From Aeropyrum sp. (lineage in GTDB: Archaea; Thermoproteota; Thermoprotei_A; Sulfolobales; Acidilobaceae): a stretch of DNA of 43,190 nucleotides. Positions 16,764-24,229 of this stretch are shown here, in pieces; position 1 is the first letter of the stretch; each line of letters begins with the position of its first letter. Where the stretch lies: assembly GCA_015521685.1 (NCBI GenBank), contig WANT01000035.1, positions 1 to 43,190 of the forward strand, read 5' to 3'. The position numbers were made by a program, and so were the translations under genes. The notes beneath the pieces are model-generated. The model did no database searches. It worked only from the letters and a program-made list of their open reading frames with translations, and was not told the DNA's origin.

Positions 16764-18179
16764 TTAGACACCCACGCCCGCTATCCCAGAGGTTGTACGG
16801 GCCTTTTTAAGATATTCATTGAACGGGTAAATCTTCACCAGCGAAGCGCCACCACCTAGTCTCACAGCTGCAAAGCCCTCGCCCAGCATACTAAGCCTTT
16901 CCAGCATCCCTCCGGGAAGACCCAGGTCCTCGACAAGCCTCTTGTACTCCTTTGCAACACCCCTAAATGCTATAATAGTACCAGCATTAGATGGGATTTC
17001 GCCCTTGAAGTCCGTGGGATCCTGGCTAGCTAGAACTATATATAGACCCCTACTTCTACCCTCCCTTACGGCCTTCCCGACAGTCTCCCCAGCAGAGCTA
17101 AGTCTCCAGGCCTCATCAACTATAATTACAATCTTCTCGGCAGCCACCCGGCTAAGAACGTAGTCTAGCAGCGAGTCTAGCAGCCTCTTAGACGCCTCAT
17201 TCCTATCAGCCTCGCGCAATAAAGACAAGTCGTACACAGTCAAGGATGTTAGCTGAGGTATAGAATAGCCAGGAGATGGTAGATTCTCAATATTGGAGAC
17301 TACAATCCGCCTACTAGCAACCCCTTCTAGAAGTCGTGATAAGTCGCCTTTAGGATCTATAACTATGACCGAAAGCGAGCCGCTTGATTCTGCAATGACC
17401 GATAGTTGGACTGCAATCCCAGAGAGGAGAACAGTTTTACCCATACCTGTAGGCCCGATTACAAGTATATGCTTCTCGAGGTCCTCAGGCCACCTAAGTG
17501 TTAAGACTTCTCCCGTCTCGAAATCTACGCCTATAGTAATAGAGCCGTGCCGGGATAATAGGGATGCGGGCTCTACGTTAGATGCGGCAGCCTCGAGACT
17601 TATTTCAGCAGCCTCACTTATACACTCGATCTCGCTAAGCGAGAATCTTACTCCAGTCTCGCTTTCGAGCATCCTAGCGAACAGCTCTACACTTCGATGC
17701 TCGTTATTGGTCGCCCAAACAACCACTGACAACTTCTCAGCGACGGGCCTTCCAGCGGAAGAGACGTCCCTATATAACTCCTCGAGAAACGCTAAAGCTT
17801 GCTTGTACCTATCTAGCCGTGTAGTAGTGTATTTGTATTCGACTTTTCTAATCTCCTCCTCTATCAGCGAGGCCAGATACGCCTTCTCAACCGGAGCATA
17901 CGTATAAATATATGAGACTGGGAAGGGAGCCCGTCTGGCCAGACTGTATAGCCTCTTTCCTAGAGCGCCTCCAATCTTTATAGTCCCCGAGGGCTCTAAG
18001 AGAATTGGCCTTCTCTCTGTTGTTTCCCAGCCAGCCCGCAGTCCTCCATCCACTCTCGAGTAAATTTTTCTGGCACTGGCCGCGATAGTCTTCTTATACA
18101 GTATTAGTGCTGATGCAACCATCAATGAGACTATTATCAGGTCGAAAACACTCACCATATGAGCCGCCCCAAGAGTCAT
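16764..18179 (-). CDS. cedB: CedB-like HerA/VirB4-type ATPase of the DNA-import system
   Basis: The 471-residue protein has one N-terminal membrane anchor (about 9-28). It then has a coiled or mixed region and a HerA/VirB4-type motor domain. Walker A is GPTGMGKT (242-249), followed by VIVIDPKGDLSRLL. Walker B is IVIIVDEAWRL (Asp355-Glu356), then GRSRGLYIVLASQDPTDF. CedB is the motor of the crenarchaeal system for exchange of DNA, which takes up DNA from neighbouring cells. The gene starts 4 bases after cedA and ends 2 bases before rpl2. In Sulfolobus cedB lies away from cedA; here it is in the same operon. Confidence 0.85.
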   Translation of the reverse strand: MTLGAAHMVSVFDLIIVSLMVASALILYKKTIAASARKIYSRVDGGLRAGWETTERRPILLEPSGTIKIGGALGKRLYSLARRAPFPVSYIYTYAPVEKAYLASLIEEEIRKVEYKYTTTRLDRYKQALAFLEELYRDVSSAGRPVAEKLSVVVWATNNEHRSVELFARMLESETGVRFSLSEIECISEAAEISLEAAASNVEPASLLSRHGSITIGVDFETGEVLTLRWPEDLEKHILVIGPTGMGKTVLLSGIAVQLSVIAESSGSLSVIVIDPKGDLSRLLEGVASRRIVVSNIENLPSPGYSIPQLTSLTVYDLSLLREADRNEASKRLLDSLLDYVLSRVAAEKIVIIVDEAWRLSSAGETVGKAVREGRSRGLYIVLASQDPTDFKGEIPSNAGTIIAFRGVAKEYKRLVEDLGLPGGMLERLSMLGEGFAAVRLGGGASLVKIYPFNEYLKKARTTSGIAGVGV

Positions 18180-18183
18180 CTAG

Positions 18184-19551
18184 CTATACAACTTTGACCC
18201 TCAGCTTGGAGCCACCGCCTAGGAGTCGGGCTACACCCGCAGTGGCTACCAGGAGGATTGAGATGTACATTGTCGGTAGTGTTAGATAGTATATGATTAT
18301 CATTTTTGCCAAGTCTATCGTGAAATAGTCTGTTAGGCTGGCAATACTTTCTAGAAGATCCCTAGACTCGCCGGACAGGTCCGCCTTGAGCCTGCAGTAT
18401 TCGCTGGCTATCGACACGGAGACTCCGCCATCCCGAGGCGAGACCACTATATATTCGCCTTCCAGCCCAGCCCATCTCCAAGCACCTCTGTTAGACTCGC
18501 CTTGTAAAACCGAGATGCCAGGCGCACACTCGTTCACCCACGATATTAGCACATAATCGCCACGATCTAATCCCGACCATATTGCTTCAAACACACCATC
18601 ACCAGACCTGGTTTCTGTTGGTGGCTCGCTAGACGCTAGGAGGAGGCCGTCGTGGGGTGAGTATATGATGTTGGGTGCTCTGAGCTCAATGCTACCGCCT
18701 ATATCGGAAGTATTGATCGAGGAGGGCTCGAGCGCGAACTCCATGCCCATGTACTCGAGCGAGAAGACCAGCTCCTCCATAGGTAGAGATACTCTAGGTA
18801 TTCCAAGCACGCTACTATAAGCCACGCCATCCTTTACCTCATAGACTATAGTCTCTCCAGAGACAGCTCCACGGGCCACTAGCAAGCCAGCTGGTATAGG
18901 CTCTCCCATCATGTTGAATATCCTTACGCTCCCAATCCACATGCTGTCTGATTTAGGGGCTGGTGGTTCTCCTATGGCTTCCACGAACGCTGGCAAAGCT
19001 GGCAGGCCGGCATTGAATATTAGGACGAACGCCGCTAGCCAAGCCCCAGCAGGCTTGGCAATCCTGAAGGGTATCGCATAGAGTACTACAGCAATTCCTA
19101 GTAACAGGTTGCTATATCCAAGGAGATACTTTAACCCTGCTACCATAGCCACCACAACCGTGATCCCCCATGCTAGTTCATCCAAGATTGAGGCCACGGT
19201 GGAAGCCACAGGCTTGAGGAGAGATAGGGGTTCGGGAAGACTAGTTACTAGACTCGAGAGAACCTTAAGGAGGGCTGCGAATGATATCGCGTCCACGAGC
19301 CACGCGTTGAGTTCCGGCCATGAACCTCCTATGAGTAGCTGGAGATAAGCCGAGGCCGCAAGTAGCGATCCTATAGAAAGAGAGAGCAGAGCTGCCCATA
19401 GAGAGTCTTCTATGAGTATTGGACCCCACTTCTTTATTGATTGTAGGGGTATGGGGGCCGCGTAAATCACAACGCCCATATAGAATCCCAACACTGCTAA
19501 CTTGAACGCTAGGAGTGCAAGCTCTGCCTGTCCCAGGGGGTCCAGCGCCAA
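18184..19551 (-). CDS. cedA: CedA-like polytopic channel protein of the DNA-import system
   Basis: The 455-residue protein has about six membrane segments in its first 195 residues. A long beta-rich domain follows (about 200-410, probably outside the cell, with Cys pairs such as NECAPG and SEYCRL). A last membrane segment ends in a basic GGGSKLRVKVV tail. Its place between a two-helix small membrane protein and a HerA-type ATPase matches CedA1-CedA-CedB, and CedA has been likened to VirB6-type conjugation channels. Residues about 8-65 repeat the CedA1 sequence, including the APIP...IKK.G....EDS.WAAL signature. It starts at TTG 19551, 4 bases after the cedA1 stop. Confidence 0.75.
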   Translation of the reverse strand: MALDPLGQAELALLAFKLAVLGFYMGVVIYAAPIPLQSIKKWGPILIEDSLWAALLSLSIGSLLAASAYLQLLIGGSWPELNAWLVDAISFAALLKVLSSLVTSLPEPLSLLKPVASTVASILDELAWGITVVVAMVAGLKYLLGYSNLLLGIAVVLYAIPFRIAKPAGAWLAAFVLIFNAGLPALPAFVEAIGEPPAPKSDSMWIGSVRIFNMMGEPIPAGLLVARGAVSGETIVYEVKDGVAYSSVLGIPRVSLPMEELVFSLEYMGMEFALEPSSINTSDIGGSIELRAPNIIYSPHDGLLLASSEPPTETRSGDGVFEAIWSGLDRGDYVLISWVNECAPGISVLQGESNRGAWRWAGLEGEYIVVSPRDGGVSVSIASEYCRLKADLSGESRDLLESIASLTDYFTIDLAKMIIIYYLTLPTMYISILLVATAGVARLLGGGSKLRVKVV

Positions 19552-19555
19552 AAAG

Positions 19556-19813
19556 TCACCCCCCTAGGAGGGCCTGGCTAACAATGTTTGCAGCTTTTAC
19601 TATGAGAGCAAACACGGTTGTTCCTAGAGCTAGCCATAAGGCGGCCCACATGGAGTCCTCAACCAGGGAGTTTCCTACCTTCTTTATCTTAGATGATGGG
19701 ATTGGAGCACCCCTTATAGCCCAGCCTAAACTCCAGGAGAGGAGGAATAGAGCCCAAGCTAGAGCGGTTACCTTCGTTGTTAGGTCGTCAATTAGATCTA
19801 CAAGCTCGACCAT
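19556..19813 (-). CDS. cedA1: CedA1-like two-helix membrane protein (candidate DNA-import pilin)
   Basis: The 85-residue protein has two hydrophobic helices (about 16-33 and 54-78) joined by a short charged loop containing APIPSSKIKKVGNSLVEDS. This size and layout fit CedA1, the VirB2/TraA-like subunit of crenarchaeal DNA-import pili. No cleavable signal or class III prepilin site is evident. The gene heads the operon; a distinct CedA2 gene is not seen. The name is inferred from context and architecture and has not been tested by database search. Confidence 0.75.
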   Translation of the reverse strand: MVELVDLIDDLTTKVTALAWALFLLSWSLGWAIRGAPIPSSKIKKVGNSLVEDSMWAALWLALGTTVFALIVKAANIVSQALLGG

Positions 19814-22098: not shown

Positions 22099-23133
22099 TT
22101 GGGAGCACGTAAGAAGAGGGCGCCGAGAAGAGGTAGCCTTGGCTTCTCGCCAAGGAAGAGAGCGGCGAGACTAGTCCCTCGCATAAAGAGCTGGCCTCAG
22201 GTTGATATAGGAAGGCCAACTCCACTAGCCTTCCTAGGATACCGTGTGGGAATGACGCATGCATTCGTAGTCGAGGATAGGCCAGGCAGGCCCACTACAG
22301 GGAAGGAAGTTTTCCTACCTGTTACTATAGTAGAGACGCCTCCTATGTACGTTTTAGCACTAAGGCTATACGGGTTTGACCCGAACAGAGGCAGATACTC
22401 TATGGGGGAGGCTTGGTCCCAGCCTCCCGAGGACCTCGAACTACAGAGAAAAATAAAGACACTGGGGTCTTTCGAGACCGACAAGACTCTGGGGGAGCTT
22501 GAGGGTGAGTTAGAGAAAGCCGTGGAGGTTAGGATCCTAGCCGCATCCCAGCCTAAGCTAGCGGGAGGCCTATCCAAGAAGAAGCCAGACCTTCTGGAAA
22601 TTAAGATCGGTGGAGTCAACAGTGTGAGCGACGCTTTCGAGTATGCCAAGGGGTTGCTAGGCAACCAGATAAGCGTCAAGGACGTGTTCCAGGAGGGCCA
22701 GCTAGTCGATGTCATAGCTGTCACTAAAGGCAAGGGCTTCCAAGGAGTGATTAAAAGGTGGGGAGTTAAGGAACTCCCAAGATGGCATAAGCACAGGAAG
22801 GGTAGCAGGAGAATCGGCGCCAGGAGCCATGGAAGGAGCGTTTTCTGGGAGACACCGCAAGCTGGCCAGACCGGATTCCACAGGAGGACCGAGTACAATA
22901 AGAGGATCGTATCCATAGAAGACGACGGATACAAGATAACCCCGGCTGGTGGATTCCTCCACTACGGGGTAGTTAGGTCTACATTCGTGATGCTCGCAGG
23001 AACAATACCAGGCACGCCAAAGAGGCCAGTCGTCCTAAGATGGCCTATAAGGCCTCCAGAATGGTATCTTAAGCTAGGCGTGAAGAAGCCAGAGATTACG
23101 TACGTGAGCCTGGCTAGCAAGCAAGGTACTTAG
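22099..23133 (+). CDS. rpl3: Large-subunit ribosomal protein uL3
   Basis: The 344-residue protein is a typical archaeal L3. It has a basic N-terminal SLGFSPRKRAARLVPRIKSWP tail, FLGYRVGMTH, VTKGKGFQGVIKRWGVK, and the W-finger region GSRRIGARSHGRSVFWETPQAGQTGFHRRTEYNKR that reaches the peptidyl transferase centre. It starts at TTG 22099; no other start fits the conserved N-terminus. TTCTTAATAGG at about 22041-22051 may be its promoter. It leads the rpl3-rpl4-rpl23 operon. Confidence 0.97.
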   Translation: MGARKKRAPRRGSLGFSPRKRAARLVPRIKSWPQVDIGRPTPLAFLGYRVGMTHAFVVEDRPGRPTTGKEVFLPVTIVETPPMYVLALRLYGFDPNRGRYSMGEAWSQPPEDLELQRKIKTLGSFETDKTLGELEGELEKAVEVRILAASQPKLAGGLSKKKPDLLEIKIGGVNSVSDAFEYAKGLLGNQISVKDVFQEGQLVDVIAVTKGKGFQGVIKRWGVKELPRWHKHRKGSRRIGARSHGRSVFWETPQAGQTGFHRRTEYNKRIVSIEDDGYKITPAGGFLHYGVVRSTFVMLAGTIPGTPKRPVVLRWPIRPPEWYLKLGVKKPEITYVSLASKQGT

Positions 23134-23150
23134 AGGGAGGTGAATTAGCC

Positions 23151-23972
23151 ATGCTCCAATATACCTACCTCACGATGTATTCTAGGTCAGGCCTCAAGGC
23201 GCCGCTCTTCAATTCTAAGGGGGAGGAGCAAGGGGACATAGACCTTCCCCCAGTATTTGGCATCCCAGTTAGGAAGGATATAATAAGAAGGGTCTACCTA
23301 AGCGAATTCACAGCCAGGCTACAGCCTAAGGGCAGAGATCCAATGGCCGGTAAGAGGACAAGCGCTGTAAGCCTAGGTGTAGGCAGGGGTGTTGCTAGAG
23401 TTCCACGAGTTAAGGGCAGCCTCAGGGCCGCGCTAGTCAACATGGCGAGAGGAGGTCGAGTAGCTCACCCGCCGAGAGTGGAGAAGCGCGTCCATGAAAG
23501 AGTTAATAAGAAGGAAAGAACGCTCGGAACCATGAGTGCAATAGCGGCTACCGCAATCTTAGATATGGTTAAGTCGAGAGGTCACATGTTCTCCATAGAG
23601 ACTCTCCCACCCGTTCTAGACTCTGAGGTCCTCAACGAAGTAACAAGCACCAAACAAGCAAACATCTTACTCCAAGCTATTGGAGTATACCAAGACGTAG
23701 TTAGAGCAAGGGAAAGAAGGAGAGTTAGGGCTGGTAAAGGAAAGATGAGGGGTAGAAAGTATGTAACGCCTAAAAGCATACTCTTCGTAGTCGAAGATAT
23801 AAAGTCTCCTTTCGCTAGGAGCGTTAAATCTCTGCCAGGCGTCGATGTCGTAGAGCCTAGGCTGCTAAGCGTGCTACACCTAGCTCCTGGCGGTGTGCCA
23901 GGCAGGCTAACGGTTTACACTACAAGAGCTCTAGAGGCGCTAGGAAATAGGTTCAGGGTGATGTCACTGTGA
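23151..23972 (+). CDS. rpl4: Large-subunit ribosomal protein uL4
   Basis: The 273-residue protein is a full-length archaeal L4. The N-terminus [22 protein letters not shown], the extended loop [24 protein letters not shown]-type region lining the exit tunnel, and the C-terminal [12 protein letters not shown]-like segment ([20 protein letters not shown]) are all present. The start ATG 23151 follows GGAGGTGAATTAGCC, a good ribosome-binding site. Its stop overlaps the GTG start of rpl23 (GTGA). Confidence 0.97.
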
Positions 23973-24229
23973 AGCCCGAAGAGATACTCATCAGGGTATA
24001 CGTAACTGAGAAGACTACGAAGCTCCTGGAAGATGAGAACACGCTAACATTCATAGTTAGAAGGGAGGCAACTAAGGGGGACATCAAGAGAGCGGTGGAA
24101 CAGTTGTTTGCTGTCAAGGTAGAGAAGGTTAGGACAGCGATAACGCCGAGAGGGGAGAAGAAGGCATTTGTCAAGCTGGCTCCAGAATATAAGGCTCTAG
24201 ATGTTGCTACCAGGCTAGGAGCCGTCTAG
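23969..24229 (+). CDS. rpl23: Large-subunit ribosomal protein uL23
   Basis: The 86-residue protein matches archaeal L23 in length and motifs: [46 protein letters not shown], then [25 protein letters not shown]23 forms the exit-tunnel docking site for SRP and NAC. It starts at GTG 23969, overlapping rpl4 by 4 bases. The expected next gene, rpl2, is missing from this position; instead a convergent Mrp-type ATPase overlaps the stop by 4 bases. Confidence 0.96.

Follow-up and report, generated by a model that had tools for sequence, protein, structure and literature searches.

The N-terminal hairpin of CedA, the membrane channel by which these thermophilic archaea import DNA from one another, and the conjugative pilin CedA1 are homologous across the sampled Thermoproteota, and we propose, by analogy with a bacterial system and with a probability of about 0.6 for the two parts jointly, that both descend from one common hairpin and that the copy retained in CedA is a surface which receives CedA1 subunits. 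To our knowledge, the junction between pilus and channel is unsettled in every type IV system. With a pilin paralogue inside the channel itself, these archaea would offer a short and clean setting for work on docking, on recruitment, and on whether pilus or channel arose first. The bare observation of homology is already known, since Beltran et al. (2023) reported explicitly in their Discussion that almost all of the CedA1 pilin has its homologue in the N-terminus of CedA, and described the same relation, with lower significance, between VirB2 and VirB6 (PMC9905601). The initial annotation of this DNA was therefore mistaken in believing the likeness to be undescribed. In the portions available of later papers on the Ced system and of recent reviews, the docking question for archaea is not taken up.

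The two genes lie in a stretch of 43,190 nucleotides (the window) from a 1.44-Mb genome of Thermoproteota, where cedA1, cedA and a HerA/VirB4-type ATPase gene follow one another with gaps of a few bases (Table 1); only 4 bp separate the stop codon of cedA1 from cedA. CedA1 exceeds the NCBIfam Ced_CedA1 cut-off (116.3 bits against 100), and its residues 3-84 match 8DFU, the A. pernix conjugation pilin of known structure (phmmer, E=5.4e-38). CedA matches NCBIfam Ced_CedA over residues 10-197 (E=6.1e-31) with 107.9 bits, under the equivalog cut-off of 330 because that model describes the 259-aa Sulfolobales form; judged from its sequence, the protein is nevertheless clearly a homologue of the family. 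Hydropathy gives it seven hydrophobic segments, as in CedA/VirB6-like channels with six or seven transmembrane helices. The ATPase is matched by Pfam DUF87 (E=5.6e-9) and by NCBIfam CedB (E=6e-15; 54.8 bits, far under the cut-off of 700), and is probably a CedB-like motor. A cluster of ribosomal protein genes, recognised by eye from ORFs that look like L3, L4 and L23, is found nearby on the opposite strand, at 22099-24229.

Table 1. Genes of the ced locus and compared segments, with positions in the window
Feature	Position	Strand	Basis
cedA1, VirB2-like conjugative pilin, 85 aa	19556-19813	minus	NCBIfam; 8DFU
cedA, VirB6-like membrane channel, 455 aa, TTG start	18184-19551	minus	NCBIfam Ced_CedA; AF2
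HerA/VirB4-type ATPase adjoining cedA, probable CedB-like motor	16764-18179	minus	Pfam DUF87; NCBIfam CedB
Pilin-like hairpin of CedA, about residues 10-71	19339-19524	minus	HHalign; Foldseek
CedA copy of the common motif, residues 32-55	19387-19458	minus	16/24 identical to CedA1 36-59
CedA1 copy of the common motif, residues 36-59	19637-19708	minus	ungapped alignment to CedA 32-55
CedA beta-rich domain between TM6 and last TM, about residues 200-410	18322-18954	minus	hydropathy; AF2

How close is the likeness? The CedA segment APIPLQSIKKWGPILIEDSLWAAL and the CedA1 segment APIPSSKIKKVGNSLVEDSMWAAL align without gaps and are identical at 16 of 24 positions, while the best of 300 composition shuffles reached 12 of 24. 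The gapless alignment pointed out in the initial annotation is thus real, and its location was given correctly, with the N-terminus of CedA running down from 19551. The likeness reaches beyond that motif, to about 62-69 columns: BLASTP of CedA against CedA1 gives 29 identities in 68 positions (E=2e-10), CedA as a query finds the 8DFU pilin (phmmer, E=1.8e-5), the NCBIfam CedA1 model matches CedA (E=2.3e-8), and the NCBIfam CedA and CedE models (the latter NF053657, E=2e-6) both match CedA1.

Both proteins are hydrophobic hairpins, and it may be asked if their match is any better than the generic likeness of unrelated two-helix membrane proteins. A genome-wide search with CedA1 as query, at a threshold of E<=10, finds nothing beyond the pilin itself and the N-terminus of CedA (E=2.2e-8). 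HHalign of the CedA1 family against the CedA N-terminal module gives a probability of 98.2% (E=3e-14, 62 columns), while all other CedA segments and the reversed controls give at most 2.6% each. Furthermore, an HMM of the CedA1 family matches 176 of the 186 CedA ORFs at loci with both genes, and matches no unrelated ORF at these cedA1-linked loci. By genome search, controls and recurrence, chance resemblance is refuted, and its probability can be regarded as negligible.

CedA1 is present in 122 of 147 genomes across the order, nearly all of them with a second match in the adjoining CedA, and in 177 of 229 genomes across the class; cedA1 and cedA adjoin on the same strand in all of 112 non-redundant pairs. 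No match to CedA1 was found on plasmids in PLSDB, and PHROGs gave no match. All three near-complete genomes of one genus have no CedA1 match, which suggests that the system was lost or replaced in that genus. In one genome of a Sulfolobales family (G066, C1:117810-117974), the match is interrupted by an in-frame TAG and extends over model positions 20-75 only, which may mean a broken pilin gene or an error of assembly.

When did the two modules separate? In a joint tree, the CedA and CedA1 modules are completely separated and reciprocally monophyletic (support 0.999, branch 1.16). Identity between CedA and CedA1 of the same genome is 0.327, against 0.311 across genomes, and compared with near neighbours the same-genome pairs gain only +0.006 (t=1.9), which is no meaningful excess. 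The two modules split once, anciently: the tree and the lack of within-genome excess point to a single old duplication and no recent copying. Concerted evolution through gene conversion was considered and rejected on the same two grounds, namely the excess of +0.006 and the perfect reciprocal monophyly. The most probable history is that one two-helix membrane hairpin gave rise to CedA1 and to the first hairpin of CedA, by a duplication preceding the divergence of the sampled Thermoproteota. The pilin may have been copied into CedA, or a CedA hairpin may have been set free as the pilin; the joint tree gives no order, and Beltran et al. (2023) favoured the channel as the older part (PMC9905601). 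Either way, the pilin hairpin would have become, or stayed, capable of leaving the membrane and polymerising, while the CedA hairpin would stay in the channel and keep the common fold and loop without the packing residues of the pilin.

What has been kept and what has been lost in CedA was scored at the level of residues over the 112 pairs. A core, PxP....K[KR].G..L..D, is common to both families, and its spacing from PxP to D is fixed in both. The motif emphasised by the initial annotation is general in its PxP-to-D part, but the glutamate and the tryptophan of its EDSxWAAL part are each present in only 7 of 112 CedAs; this latter part is largely local, and the pair in the window has a more pilin-like appearance than is typical of the family. 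All the CedA module positions conserved at 90% or more (L21, G26, P33, P35, K40, D49) carry the same residue in the pilin. The reverse does not hold: CedA retains six of the 18 near-invariant residues of the pilin, G30, P37, P39, G47, D53 and A58 (half-way), and has lost twelve, W20, F23, W27, W31, G35, E52, A57, F59, W60, A62, G64 and F68; the pilin residues W20, F23, W27, W31 and G64 occur in 0% of CedAs, and E52 and F68 in 6%. On helix 1 of the pilin, W20, F23, W27 and W31 lie on one face (R=0.87, p=0.014 against random picks). The fold and loop are thus common to CedA and the pilin, and the probable packing set belongs to the pilin alone. The CedA N-module has the two-helix hairpin and the core loop but lacks the near-invariant W20, F23, W27, W31, E52, G64 and F68, and by this test it would be a homologue of the pilin yet no working pilin.

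These losses bear on the docking model of the initial annotation, a built-in pilin layer, read here as a ring of CedA hairpins isosteric with pilins on which the filament stacks directly. Against it, the helix-1 face and A62, G64 and F68 of helix 2 are among the residues that CedA has lost. The A. pernix pilus is, moreover, a 1-start helix and no stack of rings, so that it has no flat layer for CedA to imitate (PMC9905601), and in R388 the site of assembly lies higher up, where docking and mutants placed it, distinct from the recruitment site at VirB6 helix 1 (PMC9259494). A layer seeding the filament is thus not borne out and appears quite improbable. Equally doubtful is a broader version, that the CedA hairpin is a pilus-nucleating template, the channel seeding its filament through a non-polymerising pilin paralogue, and that this arrangement is ancestral to archaeal and bacterial type IV systems. 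A pilin-derived surface for recruitment or docking would seem to fit the data better than an isosteric layer.

Predicted structures agree with the sequence comparison. An untemplated AF2 model of CedA, built from 61 relatives, has a mean pLDDT of 90.8 and contains seven long helices; a beta-rich domain (about residues 204-382 in the model) precedes the last of them. The solved A. pernix pilin (8dfu_0) superposes on this model at 1.8 A over 58 columns with 41% identity (Foldseek probability 1.00, weak E=0.26). It is to be noted that weak Foldseek E-values are usual for helical membrane proteins, and that hairpins superpose easily. Sequence, profile and predicted structure together support the proposal that CedA opens with a duplicated or fused pilin-like subunit, formed by its first two membrane segments. 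For a 256-aa CedA of Metallosphaera (pLDDT 89.9), which has no beta domain, chains of R388 VirB6 rank first among the PDB matches (probability 0.96, weak E=0.13, 17% identity), and it is through this model that CedA is predicted to have the VirB6 fold; the model of the window CedA has no VirB6 among the 50 Foldseek matches listed. In identity, the top matches of these models agree with the published HHpred result. The beta-rich domain gives weak beta-sandwich matches, contains the only two cysteines of the window CedA (342 and 386), and is probably extracellular. Most non-Sulfolobaceae CedAs sampled are as long as that of the window, while Sulfolobaceae CedA (about 260 aa) lacks the domain. 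The domain recalls the 'extended VirB6' proteins.

How would the hairpin of CedA work at the channel? Both proteins would insert into the membrane as a hairpin, with the K/R-rich loop predicted to be cytoplasmic from hydropathy and charge. The likeliest role of the CedA hairpin would then be to offer a pilin-like surface at the channel, receive CedA1 subunits from the membrane, and align them with the pore, as proposed for helix 1 of VirB6. This role is put forward because VirB6 helix 1 of R388 is the proposed recruitment site of VirB2, on the basis of coevolution and mutants, with the top 50 coevolving VirB2-VirB6 pairs all in that helix (PMC9259494). A rival explanation is that the hairpin is only a signal-peptide-free signal for export or insertion, inherited by both proteins, which do not contact each other. 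The kept positions are mostly in the loop or at helix caps (G30, P37, P39, K44, G47, D53), which is where conservation of fold and topology would be looked for; a common export pathway was suggested by Beltran et al. (PMC9905601); and covariation between CedA1 and CedA (MI-APC), at a shallow Neff of 89, gives no pair above z=3.5, the top scores favouring conserved columns rather than credible contacts. However, the exact loop residues are kept throughout the class, beyond what insertion would generally be thought to need, and cedA and cedA1 are always adjoining and essential together: according to the part available of a study on Saccharolobus islandicus, deletion of either cedA or cedA1 abolishes DNA import (PMC11868833). 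Inheritance of an insertion signal alone is, on balance, unlikely. Recruitment by the CedA hairpin has its own caution, in that the helix-1 coevolution which places the site in R388 (PMC9259494) may partly record common descent of VirB2 and VirB6; helix 1 is the very part of VirB6 described as homologous to VirB2, and paralogy could inflate such a signal.

In comparison with known systems, CedA and CedA1 of the window are the same proteins as those described from A. pernix and Sulfolobales, with nothing different in kind (PMC9905601); what is added here is the set of 112 non-redundant pairs, the controls, the joint tree and the residue-level account of what CedA has lost. Saccharolobus islandicus has CedE, described in the part available of the same study as a second VirB6-like paralogue (PMC11868833), and CedE apparently begins with the same module, because its model matches the CedA1 pilin; unlike that species, the genome studied here has no separate CedE above the cut-off. 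Bacterial VirB2/VirB6 systems (TraA or TrbC, and TrwI) likewise combine a pilin with a channel bearing a related N-terminal hairpin (PMC9905601), and the short form of CedA is predicted to fold like R388 VirB6. They differ in that no sequence identity is recognisable outside the fold, and in that the large beta-rich domain is a property of the window CedA.
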